Source of the DNA: Branchiostoma floridae
Taxonomy: Eukaryota > Chordata > Leptocardii > Amphioxiformes > Branchiostomatidae
Length of the DNA: 64,000 bases
Reading direction: 5' to 3'
Assembly: GCF_000003815.2 (NCBI RefSeq)
Contig: NC_049982.1
Span: 16,656,972-16,720,971 of the forward strand
Shown: positions 5,501 to 56,887 of the stretch, piece by piece
How positions within the stretch are numbered: position 1 is the stretch's first letter
Layout: the number at the start of each line of letters is the position of its first letter
Made by a program: the position numbers and the translations under genes
Notes under the pieces: model-generated
Seen by the model: only the letters and a program-made list of their open reading frames with translations
Told to the model about the DNA's origin: nothing
The model's database searches: none

Positions 5501-8500
5501 CTTAATATATAGTTACATTGTTTATGTAAATGGAGATCTCGCTAATGAAAATATTTTGGTTCTTTGAAAAATGCCAAATCTGTAAAAGTGTGACACAAAA
5601 TGCCAAATATTCCATACTTTACGGTCAATACAGCATCTGGACCGAGAAAGCCAGGACAGTATTTCCATCTATCTCAATAAAACATGTATGAGTTGGTACA
5701 CAGCAGGTATGCTCCTGGCTAAGGAACCCAGCTAGACAATCGTTATGACAAGATGCTGTATCCAGCCAATATTTGCCTGCCTGCTAACATGAAAAATCTA
5801 TATGCACCATTTCCTGGTCACTACGCATCATTTCCTGCAGCCGCAGGTCGTTTTTTGACTTCCAATCTGTTCCGATTTTTTTTAGGAGTGTACCAAACAT
5901 GATCAGGCAGATAGAAAGAGTCATAGTCAAGTTAGATATAATGTCCTGTAATCTACAAGAACACAAGTATCTTGGAGGGAATAGGACAGGTACAGAATAG
6001 TTCTTGGGGTCTCATTCATGAGTTTCGGTTTTTCATTGATTTCAACTTAAAAATACACTGTACTTGCTTTCTATTGGGGTGTCCCTGATGATCATTTTGG
6101 TAATATGATGATATCATTCATTTTATGTTGAGTACATTTATGCTTCATTGTGTAAAAAAATTGCCAACATCTAGCCCTTTTTATAGCAACTATAAACTGC
6201 AGTAAATCTTGCCCTGCAAGTGGTACTGTTGCATTGCAATAGCGTACAACAGCACCACTCCAAACCCTGTGCAGATTGTGTAGATCCACCCTAGTGCTTT
6301 GCTGCTGAAAATTACATGTTAATTTCTTCCGTTACAAGCTTTTGCCACTTTGACGTTTTACATCAGTTGGACTGCCGAAAGGGAATTCCTCACCAATACA
6401 AATCCACATTCATGCAGCCATTTTATTTTTGAGTTGGTACTCTTTATTTTTAGGGCACCTACTCAGAGTAATAGTACATGAAAGAGACCTTATGATTCCA
6501 TCACTTTTCCTAGACTTGTATTGTACCTCACCAGTGTAAACCAGATGTGCATGTACTCAACTTCTAACTACTATTAAGCAAACCCAAAATGTTGGATGCA
6601 ATGGTAGTTTATATGTACAAACATATGGAGGTAAACAACATCTCCATGAAAATGAATGGCTATGCAAGAGATAGTCATGTCCATGGTATTTGTTTCTGCC
6701 AGTTCAATCTACAGACCCTGAAGAGGGTGCTGAAGGAGAGTGATGGATGTCACTCAAAACGTCCAGAAGTAAATTTAAGTTTTTTTTCTATCCAGTTGTA
6801 ACTTAAGTTGAGATTAAATTGTATTTGAATATTGGTTACCTGGATGTCTAACCTTCATAAACGTGTCCATGGAATAGTTTATGCAGTTCATTGCAGCAGG
6901 GCAAGGTGGCACTTTAGACCTGTACAAGAATTGTGTACAAGTCATGTGACTCATGGGCTTTATTTTCACAACAATGGTCCTGCCAATTAAAGAAACTATA
7001 AAGGCTAAGACAAGTACCGACCTATTGAACATCACAACCAAGTTGGTATATTGGACTAGATGAAATGAAGTCTCCCCAAAACAAAAGTACAAAATAAATT
7101 ATGTGTTATGACATCATATAAGACGTGTTATGGTTATTCCAAATTAAACAGCTAGGTGGAGCTTCTATATGGCCTAACAGTCCATTTTTCTTTTCAAATT
7201 GTCCTGCAACCTATCAACTATTATTTTGTAAATCTCAAGAGCTGTACTAATCACCTTTGCCAAGAGGGTCATATTTTTGGTAGGTAGGTTGAGGTGATTC
7301 TAATTCTTGCTGATTGTAATTCTCACTAGTTCCAATTCTTGCCTACTGTCATTGGACTATGTCTAACCGAGGAGGTTGAAAAAGAAACCTTTTTTACCTC
7401 CTTGGTCTAACATGTCAAAACATTAACTGGTAATCAATCTCTGTGGTCAACTTTGCATTTTCTAAAGCCTACCAAAGTGATGTGCATGTGTTACAGCATT
7501 GCACTATTTCCTGTGTCTGCATATACAAGTTGATCCATGCATTTTACCATTCACACATGCTAACATTCACAAGGGTAACCCAACCAAACCAAATATGGTA
7601 ACAATACAGGCCTCCCCTGATACCAAGCAGCAATGTGGACAAAGTTTGTGATAAGGCTTCATTACTGAGAGATCTATGGTATTTCCCATCTTTCACCTCA
7701 CACTGTGTTTCCCGACTTCAGCATCTCATACTTTTGGGGGGTCATTGGCATTCAAATTTCTATACAAATCACATTTTCAATAAATGAGATCATTTTTGGC
7801 AACGCTTGGCAAGTCTAACAATATTCAAGTTTTAAAAATCCACAGAAATGCCGTACCCAGTGACAGAGCTGGTCTGCCAAGACCACTTTTCTGAACACAA
7901 CCGGAAAAAGGATGTTTTGAATAATTACCATTCCTCAACCATTACTTTCATATAAACTTGTGCTTGCTATTTTCTGCCAATGTAATTTTGCAAAAAAAAT
8001 GTGTTTTTTTTTAATGCAAATATTAATGAATGTAGTGCGAATAAACCAAAACTTTTTAAAAATCTGTATGTGATTTGTATTTATCTGAGAAACACAACAC
8101 AACTAATTTTTTGTGCCAGTTTATATCAGAACTTCCGCTATCAAATCCAGTGTCACCTCATGAAAATGCTTGGACAATTCCAGAAGCAACTTTTATACCA
8201 CCATCAAAGACTGAGGCTGCACTATTTACACAATTTAACATTCCAGTGACCTCCTCAGCTGGCCTGAAATATTTCATGCAAGAGTCATCCAGACCTGTCA
8301 AGATAAGTGCTAGCCTACCACTGGCCTCCCGAACACTCACTTAGCTGCAACACTGTGGAACAGGAAGGTTCTGATCAGCTCTGAGCGCTCTGTGATCTCT
8401 TTACTTACACAAATGTCTTTATTACTGCCATCATGCATGAGCTAATGTTGCAAGAAAGAGATGTGTGACTAGAAATTCACAGCCAACAGGATTGAAGGTG

Positions 8501-14677: not shown

Positions 14678-17600
14678 ATGGCCACAGGTGGTGAGTATCT
14701 GCCGGAATGTTGGCAGGATGACGAGCGGATGAATTTTCTCTTCTCTGCGTTCCCAGACAACCGGGACTTGAACCCGCATCACTGGGACAGCAAACTGCAG
14801 TTCTGGGCTGACTTGGTTGTTCACAGCTCAAGAAGCCTGGACGAACTATGTCTGGACTGTTCTACCTTAGCTCAGAGATTTAAAAGGAGCGGAAAGACGC
14901 CTCTTGGGCTACCAGTGGTTCTGAATGAGATGATCAGGTAGGATAGATGTAGTAATATACCGTAACTGTTGATTTTACGGTACCGTAACCTAACCCTATT
15001 TCAAACGTCATCATCGCAATTATTTGGTATTTCTGCGACCAGCTAGAACTTAGAAGATAAATTTCTCAACGCTTAAAGATAAGTTAAATGTTGTGAGCTA
15101 TTTCCCTTTCTCTCGCAAAACTACCGAGGTCACGGGTGAATTTCTCATCACTCGGTTTCCAGTGATGAAGACGCGTCGTCACTGGCTTACCAGTGGGGAA
15201 TATTTATCGTCACTAGTTTTCCAGTGATGAGGAAACTTCAGCTGGTAAACCAGTGACGACAAATATACAGTTTACTGAAGAAAAAGGAATCATCGTATCA
15301 GTTGAGGGGATTTCAAAGTTAGCACTTAAAGTTATACTAACGTCGCCTCTGCAAGTCCCCAGTACACTCCCGGACCAAATCTAACAGTAACACGGCTATG
15401 GCGACATGTGAATAGGGTGTTTTTGTTTTTGCATATCGAACTCAGCACTGGAACGTTCTAGTGCTATTAGAACGTGGTCACTGGAAGCCCAGTGCAGAAA
15501 TAATTTCATCACTCGGCGCCCAGTGCCGAAGAGTCACCCATCACTGGAAAACCGGTGACCTCGATGGTTCCGCACTCGGTGTCCAGTGACGAATGACGTT
15601 CATCACTGGGCCCCGAGTGACGAGCGGAGTTCATCACTGGGCCCCGAGTGACGAGCGGAGTTCATCACTGGGTCCCGAGTGACGAGCGGAGTTCATCACT
15701 GGAAACCGAGTGACGAGTCAAGGTTCATCACTGGAATTCCAGTGCCGAGAGAGCTTCATCACTGGAACAAAGCAATTCATCACTGGGAAACCAGTGACGA
15801 ACTTTCTTCGTCACTGGGCGTCCAGTGATGACGCCATTTTGAACATATTTTTGTCACTGGAAGCCCAGTGAGGAACCCGTGACCAGCGTAGCCTTGCCTT
15901 TCTCTCAACTAAATTACCAACCGCAGTATTAAATGAATTACAGTATTTGTTATAAAAGAAGTAACGTCATAAACTATTGACAGGGTGTCCCTGTCAATCA
16001 ATTTACACTATTGGCAGATGGTCCTTGTAAATAATAGCTTTGTTTGCACAATTGACTGTTTTTGACCAAAAGAATTTGTTTGGCTATATTGACAGGAAGT
16101 TTCTATCAGGATATCATAATCTTATTTGACTGGGCCCTGCCCCATTCAAATGATAATGTGATATCTGTAACACACATGCTATGATTTTTTCCCCAGACAA
16201 GGGAAGATTCAGAAGCTGTCTGAGTTCCAGTCTGGTGTGGATGCAGGTTGGGTGTCGTGGGGTTTTGATCTCATGGTGAAACGGCCTCTGCGCTGGACAT
16301 TTGGTACACTCACAGGCCGTAACCATGGCAACCCTGAGGGCACCTACCTCCTTCTTGATCTGGTTAAAGTATGTTGGTCAACATTCTTTGCAATCTTTAA
16401 ATACTTGTAGCTACTTATTCATTCAATATTATTATCAATCATGTAATGAAAATGGCTGTTGACATTCAGACTTCAAGTGAAGTGTTACACTTTGTACACA
16501 ATGTAGGAGAAGGCGGAAGCTGTTCTGACCACCCATGAGAAGTCTGTGGAGTTTGAGTCTACCGACCATGTAGTGGAGTACAGAACCCTGCTGGAACAGT
16601 GCAGACACTGCTGTAAGGACCAGGACAGCCTGGAGCTGGCACTGCTGCACCTCAGGAAACTCAGGAAAGTCTGCATCTTCCAGTCAGACCAGGGGGAGAA
16701 GGTCAGGTCTTTGGTCGATACATGTATTTGCCATTATACTTAACCCTTGTCTTGCTAAACCCATATGTACATGCATAGATAGATGGGTTACATGTCCAGG
16801 ATGTCTGTATGAGGGTCCTCCCTGTATACTTGATTGTGTATTTGGATTTGTAGTACATTTAGTATTTGAGCACATACTGCAGCAAAATGCATGATATGGA
16901 AGTCTATCTCTAGATCTACAACAGCAGTGCAGAAAAAGTCAAATTCAATGATCTTATTACGCAATCAACACAGGGGGGCTATAATGGTAAAAAGAAATTC
17001 CACAAGGACAAGTCTCTCCTCTGCAATATTTTGCCTTGTAAAGAATGTCTCATGAAATTTTCCAGTAATTGTTGCATGGTTGAAAGAAATGCAATATTTT
17101 TCGTCCATTTCATATGACAACAAGTTTGAGTGTACATTCAACCAACTATGTGGATTTCAATTGAAAATGGGCAGGATTTCTTTATTGACATGTAATATAT
17201 TAAATGTGTTTTGTTTTCAGCTGGTTAAATTTGCATCTTCAGCACACAAAACTGTCTCACCAGTAACAGATGTGGAAGTTGGTATCTTAAGGTAACTATG
17301 AGATGTTTACTCTATACATTATTTTCTTTCTTTTGAAGTCCATGTAATTTGAGATGATCTTATGTACAGATGTAGACTTTCTATTTTTATATGCTGGAAA
17401 TATCAATTTTTCAGATTAAAGAAAACAGAGGCTTCTCTGATGCAGCAAGTGGAAAAGTTGCAATCAGACAGTGACAGGTGAGTATGACAAAGATTTCACC
17501 ATGTACACAGGGAATTTTAAAATTTTTCTTTACATGATGATTTATAGTACAAAATTAATGTATCTGGGATTTTTCCGTGTTATTTAGGTGCAGGACAGAT

Positions 17601-29334: not shown

Positions 29335-32300
29335 ATGAAGACTGTGGTAGCATTGGCGCTTCTCAGTCTTGTCTGTGTGGAGGGATGGCTCTTCAGTGAG
29401 GGTAAAACAATACCTTGATCTGTCTCTATCTGTGTGCTGTTGTATGCAAGGAAAGTTGGTTTATACAAGAATGAAAGACCTTGGACTACCCAAACCATTT
29501 GTAATTTGCCGTGAATTGTTTGTTATTGTTATTGCTATTGTTATTTCATTTTTTAGTCACTTGCTCGAGTACACCACCTCTCTGTCCTGTATTGTACTGA
29601 GTTGATCTCTGATAAAAAAGAGCCGTCGAACATTCACCGTAGATGTGCTTCAACATAAGTTCATCAACGTCGTAAATGTTTATGTAATTGCATCTTTCCA
29701 TGTCCAACCTTTCCTACATTCACAGAAGCCACTTCTATGCCATTCGTTTTGGTCCAGCTCTTAAAGCCGAAGAAAAATTTCAGAACATTTTAGTACCAGC
29801 AAGGAGGTTAAAAATCTCTTTTTTTAACCTCCTTGGTACCAGACATTTGATTTTCAATCCTACAGACATGGATAATGTATGTACATTTTCTGTCTTCCTT
29901 ATGACTTCTCGACATTCTCCTGTTTCCTCTACAGATGCTGAGTGGAACGACCTCAAAGGTAAAGTTACAAACGATGTTATTAACGTCGTTCGATGCTTTC
30001 ATTCAGTTATGATAAATAGATAGTCTCATTCGAGAGAAATACGAGGCTGATGATGTTACGTCGCAGTCATTGACCACTTTCCACCCTATATTGTTTCTCA
30101 TGATGCACACTCACTCTGGCGTACTATTGGGCCTCAAGCTTTAGTTCCCGCGGCCGTCACGGCTTTGTTATCGTCTCGAGCTCAGTTATCCTTGCATCTT
30201 TTGATAGCGCCCTGACAGCCATGTTGTAAAAATGACACGATGGTTTTCCTTGCCAGTGACGTGGGGCTTGAACCAGGTGTTCGGCTCGACCATATTCGAC
30301 TCCCTCCCCCGTACGGAGAGTGACGCCCTGGCGGAGGGGTGGGTCGACTTCAGTCGTGGCGCAAGTTGCGACGGTACGTATTACCTGATTATAAGAGATT
30401 ATTGGCAGGTTTTATTTTACAGCAATATGTTCCTAAATTGGATAGGACAATGTACAGTATATGATCAACTCTCATATAGTTCCACCGGATGCCATAGTAC
30501 CACCTCATGATAACAAATACATGAAATTAAAGACGTGTACCAATGCGGCACCAGTAACCCTGAGGTATATACAGTTCATATATTTAGGCCACTATAACAA
30601 TGATTATTTGGCGTGGCTGTATTATGTCATTCGATGGTTTTATGTTAATTGCTTTGCACCCATCCAAAATCTCACACTTTGTCGCATTTGTTTTTAGGAG
30701 ATTTTTACCGCGGGTCACGCTATATCAAGGACGACGACCCCGCGGTCATGCTGCTGTTCGACAAGAACGGCTACATCGCTGGTATTCAGATGGGGGTGGG
30801 TCAACCTAAAGTTTTCCAACCTAAAGTTTTCCAACAATGCCTAAACTTTCAGTCCTCAAAACAGGCGACTTAAGTCTAAACCTCATTAGGGCTTCTTTCA
30901 ATATAACTAGTACATTCACTTCACAGATTGTTTCATGGTCCTACTTAGAGATTGCGATATTCTGAAATCATTATTAAAAACTCCTACAGGTGTCTTGAAT
31001 TTGTTGTCTGAAATCCAGACATGTAGGCGAGTATTATTCAGATATCAATCCTTAAAAAATGTTTCTTTTAATATAACTCCCCCCCCCCCCATCCCCCTAG
31101 GCTGTCACAACCGACCTCCCTGCCGGCGTTCCAGCTCCCCAAATCATGAACATGTGGAACTATGATGGTAACATGTTGGTCATCACCGCCTACTTCATAG
31201 ACCCAGGTTTGTCACACATGCATGCTTTATTATAAAACTCGTATTTTTTTTAAGTGGCATAAAAGTCAGCATTTTCATTGTCTCTTAGAGAGAAAGCAGC
31301 CTGTGGTTATCTTCCGTTGTGTCAATTTGTACTGTTTCGACTTAGTTTTCTAGTCTTAAATTCCACGCCTTTTCCTACTGACAGCATCTGTCTGCACCGG
31401 CCGTTCGGACGCGGTCTTCACCCTGGAGGGTACCGGCGTGGGTTTGTACCTGCAGACCGGTACCAACCCTGAGACTGACTACGAGCTCATCCCCAGGGAC
31501 GAGGCTGATATCGGCACGACCGCCTGGACCAAGGGCGGCTGCTTCTACACCATGGGTACACTAAAATATTTGACTATAGATCTGGAAACAGACTGACAGA
31601 AAGTTGACAAAATCACTGATGATNNNNNNNNNNNNNNNNNNNNNNNNNNNNNNNNNNNNNNNNNNNNNNNNNNNNNNNNNNNNNNNNNNNNNNNNNNNNN
31701 NNNNNNNNNNNNNNNNNNNNNNNGTCGACAGAGGTTCCCGCGTATTTTCACTAAAAGCGACCCTGCCACATTGACTGAGGCCGCAAGTAATCTCCTGGGT
31801 ATATATCTATGATAAAGAGCCCCTCTTGCACGCGGACTGTGTAAAACAAAATCTTCTTCGCAAAAAGGCAATGGTGGAGCGCAATCAATGGGCACGGACA
31901 GCTGAATGCATAGAAGAAGAAATTGTGTTGTTAACCATGTCCATATGCTACCGCAGGAGCCACAATAGCAGAAACAGAAACTTGGTCAAAGAAAGTCAAC
32001 ATTCGCAAAGAAACGGGACTTGCCCGACTGGCGGGCTTACGCCATCCGATTTTCGGTCGATGACCAATAATAAAGCCTTGCCCATGCAAGCTATGATGTA
32101 GAAGAAGTCCACATTTAGGTGGAAATGTTCCTATCCAAGTCTGTCCTTTTCTCCGCAGGCCAGCACTACTGGTACGACACTAGCGTCGACATGGACTGTG
32201 ATGACTTCTTCCCAGTCTTCCTGCTGTACAACTCCGGCAGGCTGAACGGATTCGGCTGGAACATCAATGCCAACCTGGACAGCTCCCGCTACGAGAGGCC

Positions 32301-35553: not shown

Positions 35554-38500
35554 ATGAAGACTGTGGTAGCATTGACGCTTCTCAGCCTTGTCTGTGTGGA
35601 AGGATGGCTCTTTAGTGAGGGTACGGCATTGTCTTGTTCTGTCTTTATTTGTGTGTATGCAAGAAAATTGTCATTAGGCTACTGTTCATACAAGAATGAA
35701 AAAGACATTAACACATTCGGCGCAGATGTATTTCTACATAAATTCAACAATATCGTAAATGTCTATGTAATTGTGTGCACTTTTCTATGTCCAACCCTTT
35801 CTACATTTACGGAAGCCACCTCTATGCCATTCGTTTTGGTCCAGTTCTTTAAGTCGAAGATAAATTTCAGAACATTTTAGGACCAGACATTTGATTTTCA
35901 ACCCTACAGACATGGATAATGTATGTACATTTTCTGCCTTCCTTATGACTTCTCGACATTCTCCTGTTTCCCCTGCAGATGCTGAGTGGAACGACCTCAA
36001 AGGTAAAGTTACAAACGATGTTATTAACGTCTTTCGATGCTTTCATTCAGTTATGATAAATAGATAGTCTCATTGGAAAGAAATTCGAGATTGTGCTTTT
36101 ACGTCGCCATCAACATTGTGGATGTACTTACCATCTGCTGTGCAGTCATCGACCACTTTCGACCCTATATTGTGTCTCATGATGCACACTCGCTCTGGCG
36201 TATTATTGGGCCTCAAGCTTTAGTTCCCGCGGCCGTCACGGCTTATTTCTTCTCTCGAGCTCAGTTTTCCTTGCATCTTTTGATAGCGCCCTGATAGCCA
36301 TGTTGTAGAAATAACACGATGGTTTTCCTTACCAGTGACATGGGGTTTGAACCAGGTGTTCAGCTCGACCGTGTTCGACTCCCTCCCCCGTACGGAGAGT
36401 GACGCCCTGGCGGAGGGGTGGGTCGACTTCAGCCATGGCGCAAGTTGCGACGGTACGTATTACCTGACTATAAGAGATTATTTGTAGGTTTTATTTTACA
36501 ATTGCAATATGTTCCTAAATTAGATAGGACAGTGATCAACTCTCATATAATTCCACCGGGTGGCATAAGACCGCCACATGATAACAAATACATGAATTTA
36601 GTGATTTAAAGACATGTACCAATGCGGCACTAGTAATCCTGAGGTATGTACACTTCAGATATTTAGGCCACTATAGCAATGTTTATTTGGCGTGGCTGTA
36701 TTATGGCATCCGATGGAATTGTGAGTCTGTGTTAATTGCTTTCCACCCATCCCAAATCTCACACTCGCATTTGTTTTTTAGGAGATTTTTACCGCGGGTC
36801 CCGCTACATCAAGGACAACGACCCCGCGGTCATGCTGCTGTTCGACAAGAACGGCTACATCGCTGGTATCCAGATGGGGGTGGGTCGACCTAAAGTTTTC
36901 CAACAATGTCTAAACTGTCAGTCCTCATAACAGAAGACTTTAGTCTAAACCTCATTAAGGGTTTCTTTTAATGTTGAATTACTCCGCAGCTTGTAAAATG
37001 CACCCTGGTACTGCTCAGCCATGGCGACATTGTCATCTGAAATCACTTCTCAAAACTCAACCTGTCTTGAATTTCCAGTCTTAAGTCCAAATACGTAATC
37101 TTATTAGAGATATAGACTCCTGAAAATTTTTGTTGTTTTTTTATAACTCTCCACAGGCCCGCAAAAACGAACTCTCTGCCAACATTCCCGCTCCCCAAAT
37201 CATGAACATGTGGAACGACGATGGTGACATGTTGGTGATCACCGCCTACTTCATAGACCCAGGTTGGTCACGCATGATGGCTTAATTTTGATTGTCTCGT
37301 AGACAGAATGCAGTCTGTGGTTGATTACCTCCATGAAAAATGGAGGTATAGTTTTGAGTGTATCTATCTGTCTGTGTGTGTGTTTGTGTTTCCGGATATT
37401 TGTGGACATCATAACTTGAGAACCTCTCGATGGACTACGATGATATTTGGTATGTGGGTAGGGTTTGGTACAAAGGTCAAGATCAATTTTAGACCCCCTG
37501 GTGTGTGACCTTGGTACTGCAGCAAAACTTCTTTTTTTTTTGTATCTTTTTACCTGGACATGCTATGGTCTTGATTTCTTGGTGGCAGATAGCTTTTGAT
37601 GTAAGGAAGAAGTGGTGTATGTTTGGGCCTCCTAGCAGCTTGCTCTGGAACTGCAGAAGCATTTTTGTCAGAATCTTCCAAGGAGCATAATAGAACGTAG
37701 GAATGATGGATTTCCATGATATTTGGTATGCAGGTACCTGTGGCAGAGATGTACACAATGAAGTGCAAATTATGCAAATTTGGACTTAATTTGCATACTT
37801 AATGAGGAAAATCTATATTTACAGTATTTTCCAATATAGGACTCAAATACATGTTACATAATAGTAGTTTGTGGCAGGCGGAAGTTAAGCAGATACTAAT
37901 CATGCAAATAAGTCCCAAATTTGCATAATTAATTCGAAAGTGTCCCAATTCTTCTTAGTACGTGTAGTAAATGATTCAACACTGTGACCTGTGTAAGTTG
38001 CTGAAAGGTGCACATAAGCAAGCATAAATGATGTAAATGTGAAAGTCATTTGCATAATCAAAATATTTCATGGAGGTATGAGGGCTTCGAACTCTTGTTT
38101 CCCCTGTGTCGATTTGTACTGTTTCAAAGTACTTTTCTAGTCTTCAATTCCTCACGTTTTCCTGCTGTCAGCATCTGTCTGCACCGGCCGTTCGGACGCA
38201 ACCTTCACCCTGGAGGGTACCGGCGTGGGTCTGTACCTGCAGACCGGTACCAACCCTGAGACCGACTACGAGCTGATCCCCAGGGACGAGGATAATCTGG
38301 CCACGACCCTCTGGACCAAGGGCGGCTGCTTCTACACCATGGGTACGCTGGGATATTTTACCATAGATCTGGAAACAGGATGACAAAAAGTTGACAAAAT
38401 CATTGATGTTGTAACTTGTGTGTTTGATGAGGCCTGGTCGTAAAGCTCAATAACAATGTGACTAAAATGTCTCTTGAAAACCTAATAGACTGGACTTGCT

Positions 38501-39138: not shown

Positions 39139-39614
39139 ATATATGTCACAGGAGAGATGTCGATCCAGTAGGATCGTCGATTCTCCTATGAGAGATCTCG
39201 ATCGGAGCTGGTCCTAGGGCCAACTCTGATCGGGGTCTCTCCTAGGAGAACCGACGATTCTACTAGTATAGATTGCGATCGGGGTCTCTCCTAGGGCCAA
39301 CTCCGATCCAAACTCAAATGATGCTAAGATATTGGAAACAGACTGCGATCGGGATCTCTCCTAGGAGAATCGGCGATTCTACTAGGAGAGACCCCGATCG
39401 GAGTTGGGACCAGCTCCGATCCAAACTCAAATGATACTAAGATATAGGAAACAGCAATCCTTTTTTTGATAAACAATGATTTTATTTAGTATTAATGCAA
39501 ACCTACTAATTAACTCATTAACAGCTACACACAAGCCTACTTGTGTCTACAATGTTCACTTAAGACTACCACAATAGGGTCGCTTCAGATCGACATCTCT
39601 CCTGTGACATATAT
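39139..39614. mobile_element. 476-bp MITE in the 3' UTR of copy B
   Basis: The ends are perfect 27-bp inverted repeats whose first 20 bases are ATATATGTCACAGGAGAGAT; the outermost ATATAT may be target duplication. The 3' UTR of copy A continues straight through this point (TGCTTATTATATACG), which is the empty site. The left two-thirds contains many short inverted subrepeats built on TCTCCTAGGAGA and GATCGGAGTTGG, so the RNA would fold extensively. It has no coding capacity. Confidence 0.85.
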
Positions 39615-46787: not shown

Positions 46788-49239
46788 ATGAAGACTGTGG
46801 TAGCATTGGCGCTTCTCAGCCTAGTTTGTGTGGAGGGATGGCTCTTCTCTGAGGGTACGGCACAGGCTTGTCCTGTCTTTGTTTCCGCCATGTTGTGTAG
46901 TAGTAGTAAAATAAGCAAATCAACATGGCTTAAGTTCCACACGTCGTAAATGGTTATGTAATTTTGTGTACTTTCCCCCAACCCTGTCTACTTTCACGTT
47001 GAAGATGAATTTCAGAACATTTTAGAACCAGGCGTTTCATTTTTCATACATCATGGATAAAGTATGTACACATTCTATCTTTTTATGACTTCTGACCTCC
47101 CAACATTCCCCTGTTTCCCTGCAGATGCTGAGTGGAATGACCTCAAAGGTAAAGTCACGAACTATGTACGCTATGAACTTCATCTTCATTCGGTTAAGAT
47201 GGATAGTCTCATCATAAAGAAATACCAGTCTGCTGACTTTATATCGCCATCGGCATTGCGGATAATTGCCAAATGCTTTGCAGTCTTTCGGTCCCCTTAA
47301 GTCTTCTTTTTTCTCACTCTCGCACTAGCATCAGATCTCGAGCTTTAGTTCCCGCCACGGCTTTGTTATCCGCTCGGGCTCAGCCATCCTTGCATCTCTG
47401 GATAGCGCCATGCTGTAGAAATGACACGATGGTTTTCCCCATGGTTTGCCAGTGACGTGGGGCTTGAACCAGGTGTTCAGCTCGACCGTGTTCGACTCCC
47501 TCCCCCGTACGGAGAGTGACGCCCTGGCGGACGGGTGGGTCGACTTCAGTCGTGGCGCAAGTTGCGACGGTACGTATTACCTGATTATAAGAGATTATTT
47601 GTAGGTTTTATTTTACAATTGTAATATGTTCCTAAATTGGATAGGACAATGATCAACTCCGCCACATGATAAAAAATACATGAATTTAGTGATTTAAAGA
47701 CATGTACCAATGCGGCACCAGTAATCTTGAGGTATGTACACTTCAGATATTTAGGCCACTATAACAATGTGTATTTGGTGTAGCTGTATTATGGCATCCG
47801 ATGGAATTATGAGTTTATGTTAATTGCTTTGCACCCATCCAAAGTCTCACACTCTGTCGCATTTGTTTGTTAGGAGATTTTTACCGCGGATCCCGCTACA
47901 TCAAGGACAACGACCCCGCGGTCATGCTGCTGTTCGACAAGAACGGCTACATCGCTGGTATTCAGATGGGGGTGGGTCGACCTAAAGTTAATAATGCCTG
48001 AACTGTCAGTCCTCATAACAGAAGACTTTAGTCTAAACCTCATTGGGGCTTCTTTTAATGTTCATTGGCTCCGCAGCTTGTAAAATGCACCCTGGTACTG
48101 CTCAGCCATTGCGACATTGTCATCTGAAATCACTTCTCGAAACAGTCTTGAATTTGCGCTGTTTTAAGTCCAAAGACGTAATCTTATTAAGATATAGATT
48201 CCTGAAAATATTTGTTTTTCTCTCCCCAGGCCCGCAAAACTGACCTCTCTGCCAACGTTCCCGCTCCCCAAATCATGCACATGTGGAACGACGATGGGGA
48301 CATGTTTGTCATCACCGCTTACTTCATAGACCCAGGTTGGTCACGCATGCTCTAAACTCTTGATTGTCTAGTAGATAGAATGCAGCCTGTGTTGATTTCC
48401 CCTGTGTCGATTTGTANNNNNNNNNNNNNNNNNNNNNNNNNNNNNNNNNNNNNNNNNNNNNNNNNNNNNNNNNNNNNNNNNNNNNNNNNNNNNNNNNNNN
48501 NNNNNNNNNNNNNNNNNNNNNNNNNNNNNNNNNNNNNNNNNNNNNNNNNNNNNNNNNNNNNNNNNNNNNNNNNNNNNNNNNNNNNNNNNNNNNNNNNNNN
48601 NNNNNNNNNNNNNNNNNNNNNNNNNNNNNNNNNNNNNNNNNNNNNNNNNNNNNNNNNNNNNNNNNNNNNNNNNNNNNNNNNNNNNNNNNNNNNNNNNNNN
48701 NNNNNNNNNNNNNNNNNNNNNNNNNNNNNNNNNNNNNNNNNNNNNNNNNNNNNNNNNNNNNNNNNNNNNNNNNNNNNNNNNNNNNNNNNNNNNNNNNNNN
48801 NNNNNNNNNNNNNNNNNNNNNNNNNNNNNNNNNNGACAGGCTGAACGGATTCGGCTGGAACATCAATGCCGACCTGAACAGCCCCCGCTACGAACACCCG
48901 GCTGTAGACGTTCTGGATGTGAGTGGTCTATGATACAGCTTACCTAGATATAGTTGTCATATATGCGAGTCAAAAGTGCACTAATCTGACTAGTCCCTTA
49001 CAATTGCTTGTCAGTCTGTGATGTCTTTATCACCTATTAGTAAGCACAACTAGTAGTAAGCACAACTTGTTCGTGACTCTTTGATTAAACCCCTTGCCCC
49101 TTGAGTAAACGAGTTTTAATTCTTCCTGCCGTAGATGTTCTTCCAGGACACCCCAGCCTGTTTCGTACAGCACGCCCAGCGCGGCCTGACCACCCAGCAC
49201 ATCTACCTGGACGATTCACCCAGCTTCAACTTCTGTTAG
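46788..49239 (+). CDS. Secreted six-cysteine protein, copy D (interrupted by gap)
   Basis: Visible exons are 46788-46854, 47125-47148, 47453-47569, 47874-47971, 48230-48335, the 3' part of exon 7 (48835-48918) and exon 8 (49135-49239). Exon 6 and the start of exon 7 fall in the 418-N gap. Exons 1-5 have the same lengths and phases as A and B, with an intact signal peptide (MKTVVALALLSLVCVEG), DAEWNDLK microexon and C-terminal SFNFC. Nothing visible is broken, so the gene is probably intact. AATAAA lies at 49666-49671. It is head-to-head with copy C. Confidence 0.8.
48417..48834. other. Assembly gap (418 N) inside copy D
   Basis: The N run removes exon 6 and the 5' part of exon 7 of copy D. 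In copy B these span about 38172-38600, so with the B-specific insertion excluded the gap size is close to what an A- or B-like gene would need. Confidence 0.99.
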
Positions 49240-51131: not shown

Positions 51132-51168
51132 GTCATGTCAAGGTCTTTTTAAACCTCCTTTGTCATAT
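51132..51168. mobile_element. Degenerate tiny foldback insertion
   Basis: A 23-nt imperfect hairpin (51139-51161) starts CAAGGT and ends CCTCCTTT. It is flanked by GTCATGT and GTCATAT, which match at six of seven positions. It appears to be an older member of the family at 7361, 29793 and 56193. Confidence 0.4.
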
Positions 51169-54710: not shown

Positions 54711-56887
54711 CACCAAGTGGGTATGATAATGATGATACCTTTATTGCAAACCCATGCCCGATGGCCAATTACAAAACTTAAATGGTGACGTTTTCATCAT
54801 TTCTTGAATTAATGCCTGCATAGTACAAGACGTTAAACGCGTACAACGTCAATCACTTGCTCCATATCTGGTCTCTTGTCGATCATTTCCCCAGTGACGT
54901 GGGGAGCGAACCCCTTCAATTCCCAGTACTTCCAGTCCATCCCGCGCAAGGAGAGTGACGCCAAGGCCGCAGACTGGACTGCGTTCAGCAGAGGCAATGA
55001 GTGCAACGGTAAATTACCCACTTCTTCACCGGTGCCAGAACAAAATAGAAGTTGATAGATTTTAGCAGTCACCTACAAGTGACAAAATAAAGAATAACAG
55101 ATATTTGTATGGACACGGACTGTGAATGAATGAATGAATGATTGAATAACTAATGGACGAAAGTAGATATAAGGCACATGAAGAGCAATTTCGGATGGAC
55201 GGTAATCTAAAAGAAAATGAGTTCCCCTTTCTCGTTATTTCTAGGGGCCTTCTACAACGGCTATCGTTTCATAAAGAACAACGACCCCGCAGTCATGCTG
55301 CTGTTCGACAAGAACGGCTACATCGCTGGTATTCAGATGGGGGTAAGTATTTGTGGCTGCACCAATGTATGTGTGAAGCAGGATAACATATGATGACGGT
55401 ATCTTGGTCTTATACTTGTCCCATCACTATGTACATTGTATATACGTCTAGAACAAAAAGACCAGGCGTTCCTAGACTCGTCTAGATGGTTGAAAGTAGC
55501 TATTTCATCATGTGTCAAGCGCCATCAGTATATTTAAGCCAGTAGTATAGTCAGTTGCCAAGGAAGACTGTTAGCAATAGTTTCGATCACATGTACTGCT
55601 ATACCAGGCCCAGAAGGACAAGCTACCCGCTGGCACCCCCTCCCGGTACATCCAGGCTCTGTGGAATGATGACGACGACATGTACGTCATCACGGCATAT
55701 TTCGTGGATCCAGGTGAGTCACGTGTTCATATGACGTCACACTTCCAATAGTTGGTTCAACGCCAGGTTTCTGTATGAGACACATACAGCGTGCCAAAGT
55801 GTAGCATATGGATAAACGGGTCATTTTTTTGGTTTATCCTAACTATAGAATCATACTACAAAACCTGTATTTTTGTAGTATGATAGAAATATGAGCTGTA
55901 TTCAATGGCAACTTATTTCGAGACTCTTTTTGAAGCAGTTTTGAAGGCATTATTGTGATTAGTTCTTTTCCACGATCTCACCTGTTTTGCAGCCATCGTC
56001 TGCACCACTGGTCGTACGGAGGAAGAGTTCGACCAACACGGGACCGGTACAGACCTGTACATCCAGAACGGCACCACCCCAGCCATGCACATCAAGATTC
56101 CCAAGTCGGAGTCCGGTCTCACGGACACGGCGTGGACCAAGGGGGGTTGCTTCTACACTATGGGTACAGGCTTTGTTTTATAAGCTCATTGTGTAGGACC
56201 AAGGAGCTTTAAAAGCTCCTTGGTAGGACCTGCGGCTTGGACTTGTAGGCTTATAACAGTATGTGAGCACATATATTCATTGCTTCTAGTAAGTGTGAGA
56301 GTAAACACAGTAACAGCATCAATTCGTCTATATGTGCACCTTGAGTCCCCGGCTGTTATCTGTCGAACGTTCTGTCAGATCAGTAGAAGGTGTTCTTGAG
56401 GACAAAATGAGCCCGAAAACGGGCAAATCAAGGTCGTTATTTTTCCGTTTCCGGACGGGATACGACCATATACGTGCGGATACAAATGGTATGGAAAATA
56501 ACGACCCGGATTTGACTGTATCCGGACCCACTTTGTTCATATGTATTCTAGTCTAATCTTTTGCTGTGAATTTTTATGCACAACTCCGTCAATGTGGAAT
56601 ATTTGCACAGTATACACTAGACACTCTTGAAGTGTAACGTCCTCTCTTGCAGGGCGTCACTATTGGTATAACGTGAGTAGGGACATGGACTGTGACCGAT
56701 TCTTCCCAGTCTTCCTCATGTACAACTCCGGAGATCTGAACGGCTTCGGCTGGAACATGAACGCGAACCTGGACAGTCACCGCTACGAGCACCCTCCTGC
56801 CGCCGCGCTTGGGGTGAGTAACAGCCGTTAGCCCCGATATATATAATGCGATAAAGACAGATAACGTTAAAAGACGAGAGGTTGCAA

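Follow-up and report, generated by a model that had tools for sequence, protein, structure and literature searches.

Short hairpins between 7-bp target duplications in the lancelet genome as probable excision footprints of P-superfamily DNA transposons

The short hairpins that recur in the genome of the lancelet Branchiostoma floridae are, with a probability that we put at about 0.92, excision footprints of P-superfamily DNA transposons and not mobile elements themselves. They stand between 7-bp target duplications (TSDs), and their ends and TSD length recur in long elements that encode a P-type transposase. In one family the hairpin arms are capped at 17 nt of the TIR, and the fillers between the arms are arm-like.

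Our starting point was the window, the whole 64-kb stretch of B. floridae DNA analysed here, which lies at C4:16656972-16720971 and for which a preliminary description had reported three insertions with perfect 7-bp flanking repeats and a fourth, degenerate copy. The layouts found at these places agree with it in both respects.

7361-7411, no strand assigned: hairpin 1, TSD GTCTAAC at 7361-7367 and 7405-7411 with 37 bp between, parsed by eye as a 17-nt TIR (CGAGGAGGTTGAAAAAG), AAA and a 17-nt inverted TIR
29793-29842, no strand assigned: hairpin 2, TSD GTACCAG at 29793-29799 and 29836-29842 with 36 bp between; left arm CAAGGAGGTTAAAAATC (17 nt), a junction, and right arm CAAGGAGGTTAAAAA (15 nt)
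56193-56229, no strand assigned: hairpin 3, TSD GTAGGAC at 56193-56199 and 56223-56229 with 23 bp between; 11 nt of the E1 TIR (CAAGGAGCTTTTA...) in one arm and 13 nt in the other, with a 1-nt overlap at the join
51132-51168, no strand assigned: hairpin 4, decayed, GTCATGT at 51132-51138 and GTCATAT at 51162-51168 (6/7 match) with 23 bp between, CAAGGTCTTTTTAAACCTCCTTT

A tolerant scan of the whole window, allowing at most 3 mismatches in total in the ends and requiring a flanking repeat of at least 6/7, returned exactly these four hairpins. The same scan found none in 20/20 three-mer block shuffles of the window, and on the reversed window sequence it gave three overlapping readings, all belonging to one tandem repeat. 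The exact form AAGGAGN{5,35}CTCCTT was observed twice in the window, against 0.07 expected. The hairpin at 29793-29842 sits in one of three paralogous stretches and the other two present a clean empty site, as had been claimed for copies B and D.

35733-36034, + strand: paralogous stretch, copy B, empty target with the 7-mer GGACCAG once and the hairpin absent
46900-47167, + strand: paralogous stretch, copy D, empty target with the 7-mer GAACCAG once and the hairpin absent

The hairpin at 56193 belongs to the E1-type family, and its arms are the only ones in the window for which a donor family (E1) was identified; a search for a full-length donor of the arms at 7361 and 29793 found none. Other dense inverted-repeat clusters lie in the window at 39167-39404 and 15175-15875 (motifs TCTCCTAGGAGA; CGTCACTGG), outside the hairpin family.

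A scan of the 513-Mb B. floridae genome, which the preliminary description had proposed, gave 255 exact matches to CCAAGGAGGTTN{0,30}AACCTCCTTGG and 197 hairpins with GTNNNAC on both sides, the reverse-read control being 0 in each case. The E1-type query CCAAGGAGCTTTTN{0,30}CTCCTTGG matched 102 times forward and 100 times in reverse (control 0), many places being counted in both. Besides the matches by which loci were retrieved, 9 further readings (8 places) were met in the 188,573 bases of retrieved sequence, some of them decayed and two of the CAAGGACGTT kind. The density there is about one hairpin per 24 kb in a sample that is not random, and extrapolation from this nonrandom sample would put the intact and decayed hairpins of the genome at thousands or more. 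A further end family, CAAGGACGTT...AACGTCCTTG, has perfect 7-bp repeats at L009:1462-1501 and L016:1626-1673.

The length of the target duplication was read from 57 pairs of flanks, taken from loci L001-L035, L069-L083 and the window. The flanks were exactly equal at k=7 in 38/57 readings, at k=6 in 0/57 and at k=8 in 1/57, while 11/57 matched at 5/7 or fewer. The preliminary description was right that the insertions are related to transposons, that the target duplication is truly one of 7 bp and that the hAT, mariner and piggyBac patterns do not fit. CAAGG resembles hAT ends; an origin from hAT ends was ruled out by the TSD length together with the P-type transposase. In a second set of 20 E1-type places, 10 flanks were exact, 6 matched at 6/7 and 4 were lower; one of these four, L090, becomes exact if its right end is read (by eye) 6 bp further out. 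The G1 and C7 columns of the target are forced by the query, which required C and G next to the hairpin, and among the other, unbiased columns we found T at -3 in 35/46, T2 in 30/46, A6 in 32/46 and, more weakly, A at +3 in 22/46. All targets had been said to fit GTnnnA[CG]. The near-palindromic preference for GTnnnAC stands, but as a tendency and not as a rule, because only 2/10 long copies, whose flanks were unconstrained at retrieval, fit GTnnnA[CG].

The P-type RNase H domain was located at three places in a genome search, two of them inside elements with CAAGGAG ends. The long elements, and the genes at two P-type transposon loci, are located as follows.

C19:10308832-10317273: E1, 8,442 bp, 31-bp perfect TIR starting CAAGGAGCTTTTATCAG, TSD CTCTAAC on both sides
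C11:17071456-17080139: E2, 8,684 bp, 38-bp perfect TIR starting CAAGGAGGTTGAATAAGGG, TSD AAGTCAT on both sides
L039, 3222-5495, + strand: transposase
L039, 8174-9235, - strand: second gene
L040, 6904-4597, - strand: transposase
L040, 549-1598, + strand: second gene

In E1 and E2 alike, a second ORF (353 and 349 aa) runs convergently to the transposase gene; RAG1 and RAG2 are likewise laid out as two convergent genes. The predicted transposases P0004 (E1) and P0007 (E2) both score above the cut-off for PF21787, PF21788 and PF21789 in a Pfam scan, domains that would give each a P/THAP9-type RNase H core with a GTP-binding insertion. P0004 matches the structure of the Drosophila P transposase (6p5a, E 3.2e-12). 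The VSD and QDxxE blocks fall within the main aligned stretch, whereas the DEMK block aligned apart from it and weakly, at 5.2 bits; we take these three blocks to hold the catalytic acids. PF12560 (RAG1 importin binding) is matched at the N-terminus of 4/5 of the proteins scanned, P0004 among them; the P0007 gene model is without it, but an upstream ORF in L040 has PF12560. The Pfam scan matched no THAP domain at E 0.001 among the five proteins, and a THAP domain (PF05485) is present in P0025, a distant sea-anemone relative with 32% identity. There are relatives in other lancelets, in a sea urchin and in Hydra. E1, E2 and 10/10 further pairs of E1 ends have TIRs with 7-bp TSDs, in keeping with the 7-8 bp of the P superfamily, its GT..AC target being present as a tendency only. 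By their predicted catalytic core E1 and E2 are P-superfamily DNA transposons; an N-terminal THAP domain, typical of P, Galileo and THAP9, is no requirement when assignment is by the core. The lancelet transposon is a variant within that superfamily, in its N-terminal region and its two-gene layout.

The second protein of these transposons shows sub-threshold C2H2 matches in two lancelet gene models, and its crinoid homologue a sub-threshold PHD match (22.4 vs a cut-off of 24). A further candidate, E3 (L043, L044 and L045, on C3, C1 and C7), was not used, as its visible boundary (L084:723) is without a CAAGG end. Its copy L044 is 97.7-99.8% identical to L045 and to L043 in the main aligned blocks, and all three carry a relative of the second ORF (62-63%) with ~68-bp tandem repeats.

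Shorter copies with E1 ends are also present. The 23-nt E1 end occurs 48 times in the genome (control 0), and 30 of these occurrences pair up face to face. Of the 15 pairs so formed, 13 span 1,187-1,190 bp, one spans 4,111 bp and the last, of 8,442 bp, is E1; the remaining 18/48 are without an exact partner in the list. None of the 15 pairs faces at hairpin distance. Exact 7-bp TSDs flank 10/10 pairs examined (9 of the 13 ~1.19-kb pairs and the 4,111-bp pair), and the TIRs of those ten are identical at no fewer than 27/30 nt. A longer element with the same ends and duplication length, which the preliminary description had thought worth seeking, is available in E1, E2 and the ~1.19-kb and 4,111-bp copies. 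The near-constant length and perfect TSDs of the ~1.19-kb family suggest that it moved recently in B. floridae; its copies are possibly non-autonomous and may be MITE-like elements.

How much of the TIR a hairpin retains was determined at 62 E1-type places among the matches listed, each of the 124 arms being compared with the E1 TIR. The query fixed 12 nt of one arm and 7 nt of the opposite arm and left room for hairpins as long as 49 bp; the TIR itself extends to 31. Among these arms 117/124 keep at most 17 nt; 28 reach position 17, 7 continue to 18, 1 reaches 20 and none reaches 21. The rate of continuing is 0.77, 0.76 and 0.62 at positions 14, 15 and 16, the drop having already begun at 16, and falls to 0.25 (7/28) at 17, about the rate of random letters. 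Pooled for positions 14-16 the rate is 0.73 vs 0.25 at 17 (Fisher p = 1.6e-6). When only the 48 distinct hairpins are counted the step is weaker but kept, with rates of 0.69, 0.85 and 0.54 followed by 0.37 (7/19) at 17 (7/19 vs 95/135, Fisher p = 0.008). Seven arms pass 17. In three of them (C4:11570341, C6:5654894, C6:14576748) the other arm or one filler base explains the extra match equally well. The remaining four, of 19, 19, 19 and 20 nt, call for filler bases agreeing with the TIR by chance. Read from these footprints, second-strand cleavage in the E1 family would lie 17 nt inside the TIR. The 62 hairpins measure 19-43 bp.

The interiors of the same hairpins look like repair junctions. 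With the cap set at 17 nt, 30/62 listed places are joined without filler, and 18 of these have an overlap of 1-2 nt. Fillers were defined with the same cap, and the 15 distinct ones of at least 5 nt scored 71 against the arms vs a shuffle mean of 53.6, with 0/5,000 shuffles reaching 71. There are 48 distinct interiors among the 62. The commonest, of 31 bp with an ATCAGAT junction, is found at 8/62 listed places, and the five of these whose flanks were seen all have different TSDs. It consists of a full 17-nt tail joined to a 15-nt tail through one shared base, so that repeated repair explains its recurrence. Apart from 7/124 arms, the E1 family has the form of an excision footprint, that is, a TSD, head-to-head stubs no longer than the stagger, and microhomology or filler at the join. 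Internal sequence shared among copies, by which MITEs are recognised, was not found across the E1-type hairpins listed.

We propose the following course of events. A P-superfamily element would insert with a 7-bp duplication and later be excised, its transposase cutting the transferred strand at the border of TIR and TSD and the other strand ~17 nt inside the TIR. Because the strand cuts are staggered, each flank would be left with a single-stranded 3' tail of 17 nt, carrying the same part of the TIR. These tails, being mutually non-complementary, would be trimmed by alternative end joining, annealed at 1-2 nt microhomologies or given short templated fillers, and then sealed, the repair enzyme being probably of the polymerase-theta type. 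The product would be a pair of head-to-head TIR stubs enclosed by the duplications. P transposase cuts 17 bp inside the TIR (PMC7776569), and this would account for 17-nt tails after excision; P excision leaves 17-nt 3' tails that are joined at microhomologies, with T-nucleotide insertions (PMC2895639). The arm and filler pattern in the lancelet matches the outcome of P excision and alternative end joining in flies. We infer that excision happened in vivo and that a transposase of the E1/E2 type did the cutting. Within the single genome assembly used, we met no site at which one copy carries a long element and another a hairpin.

The preliminary description took the hairpins for a self-inserting family of 23-37 bp foldback elements. 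Such elements could be moved in trans by a P-type transposase as ultra-short MITEs, and their perfect TSDs and the empty site would be expected, as would the single 31-bp interior that appears between different TSDs. We nevertheless consider this improbable. Most of the listed interiors are distinct from one another, the arms of the E1 family are capped at 17 nt, the fillers are arm-like and the recurrent interior is explained by repeated repair; moreover, P transposase reportedly needs internal P sequences (work cited in PMC7776569), for which the hairpins are too small. Since arms that stop at the expected P-type cut and junction-like interiors are what is observed in the family tested, the idea of a self-inserting family is most likely wrong. 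The same description had named footprints of a longer transposon as the finding that would speak against it, and this is in substance what we have found.

The loss of the middle of long copies by slippage or abortive gap repair, without any fixed-offset cut by a transposase, would also leave TSD, end, end and TSD in a row, and incomplete gap repair is known for P elements (PMC2895639). It predicts, however, a broad spread of remaining ends, whereas a step at 17 nt is observed; the hairpins stay within 19-43 bp though 49 was allowed, and facing 23-nt ends are found from 1,187 bp up only. We regard internal deletion of this kind as very improbable. Least credible of all, and hardly to be entertained, is that the hairpins are chance palindromes, or structured hairpins with a role in regulation or RNA and no tie to transposition. 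Their palindromes are indeed strong, and one was assigned to an intron in the preliminary description, but the reverse-read controls of the genome-wide hairpin and E1-end searches were 0, and the 7-bp TSDs and the empty paralogous sites refute this possibility.

Excision footprints of P-superfamily elements thus remain the preferred reading, and they closely resemble those of the Drosophila P element, in which two TSDs enclose a TIR stub and an inverted TIR stub, neither above 17 nt, that meet at a microhomology or a filler. The P element also has a 31-bp TIR, as E1 does, and a P-type catalytic core. On the other hand, its TSD is 8 bp and that of the lancelet elements 7 bp, and its footprints come from induced events, whereas those described here would be natural fossil footprints in a chordate. 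The lancelet proteins scanned differ from it in their RAG1-like N-terminal region, the lack of a THAP match and the second convergent gene, and in other lancelet arm families the stop seems to come at 18-20 nt. Galileo, a Drosophila member of the P superfamily, shares with the lancelet elements a 7-bp TSD and a palindromic preference, GTANTAC (PMC4168063). It has unusually long TIRs and a THAP domain (PMC3688188); the lancelet TIRs are of 31-38 bp and the N-terminal match is to PF12560. The Aplysia element N-RAG-TP, described as made only of RAG1-N-like sequence (PMC8355894), resembles the lancelet transposon in encoding a protein like the N-terminal part of RAG1. By that description it is set apart, the RAG1-like part in the lancelet being fused to a P-type transposase core. 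MITEs, finally, are also short, bounded by TIRs and flanked by TSDs, but the hairpins lack a common interior and resemble repair junctions.

Among the papers listed in searches of the open-access literature, none reports P-type footprints in amphioxus, these hairpins or these elements. P-element footprints as such are already known; natural ones from P-type elements with a RAG1-like N-terminus did not come up among the papers listed. A stagger of 17 nt is unusually long and is familiar from the Drosophila P element. The same 17 can be read in a chordate genome, although the transposase of these elements resembles RAG1 at its N-terminus and gave no THAP match, suggesting that the geometry of cutting is ancient and a property of the catalytic core. 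Together the footprints constitute a large natural record of end-joining outcomes, with microhomologies and templated fillers, at ends of known sequence, and through such footprints the strand offsets of extinct transposons could be inferred from sequence alone. For annotation they carry a warning: a very short palindromic repeat flanked by perfect TSDs may be a scar instead of an element.

The arms of the CAAGGAGGTT families seem to stop at 18-20 nt and not at 17. In 52 retrieved hairpins, arms matching F1 (CAAGGAGGTTAAAAATCAAGAGG), a sequence known from the multi-unit hairpin L066 alone, stop at 18 in five cases, at 19 in one and, ambiguously, at 21 in one. Three arms beginning GAAAGAG extend to 19, and AAAGAA arms may extend to 20. 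Hairpins of the E2 type are scarce, with 7 forward and 2 reverse matches, and one keeps 19 nt. The offset may vary from family to family, or else the TIRs are other than assumed. It is conceivable, though we would give it somewhat less than even odds, that the P-type cutting offset is evolvable and family-specific (17 nt in E1, ~18 to 20 nt in the CAAGGAGGTT families) and could be read from lancelet footprints for every family without biochemistry, even for families whose autonomous copies are lost. Members of the CAAGGAGGTT family with gaps of ~60-90 bp were found at 3 places. Larger hairpins, of 98-119 bp with the flanking motifs included, occur at L066, L067 and L068; they contain reiterated TIR pieces or repeated filler between the target repeats, looking like multi-round templated end joining.
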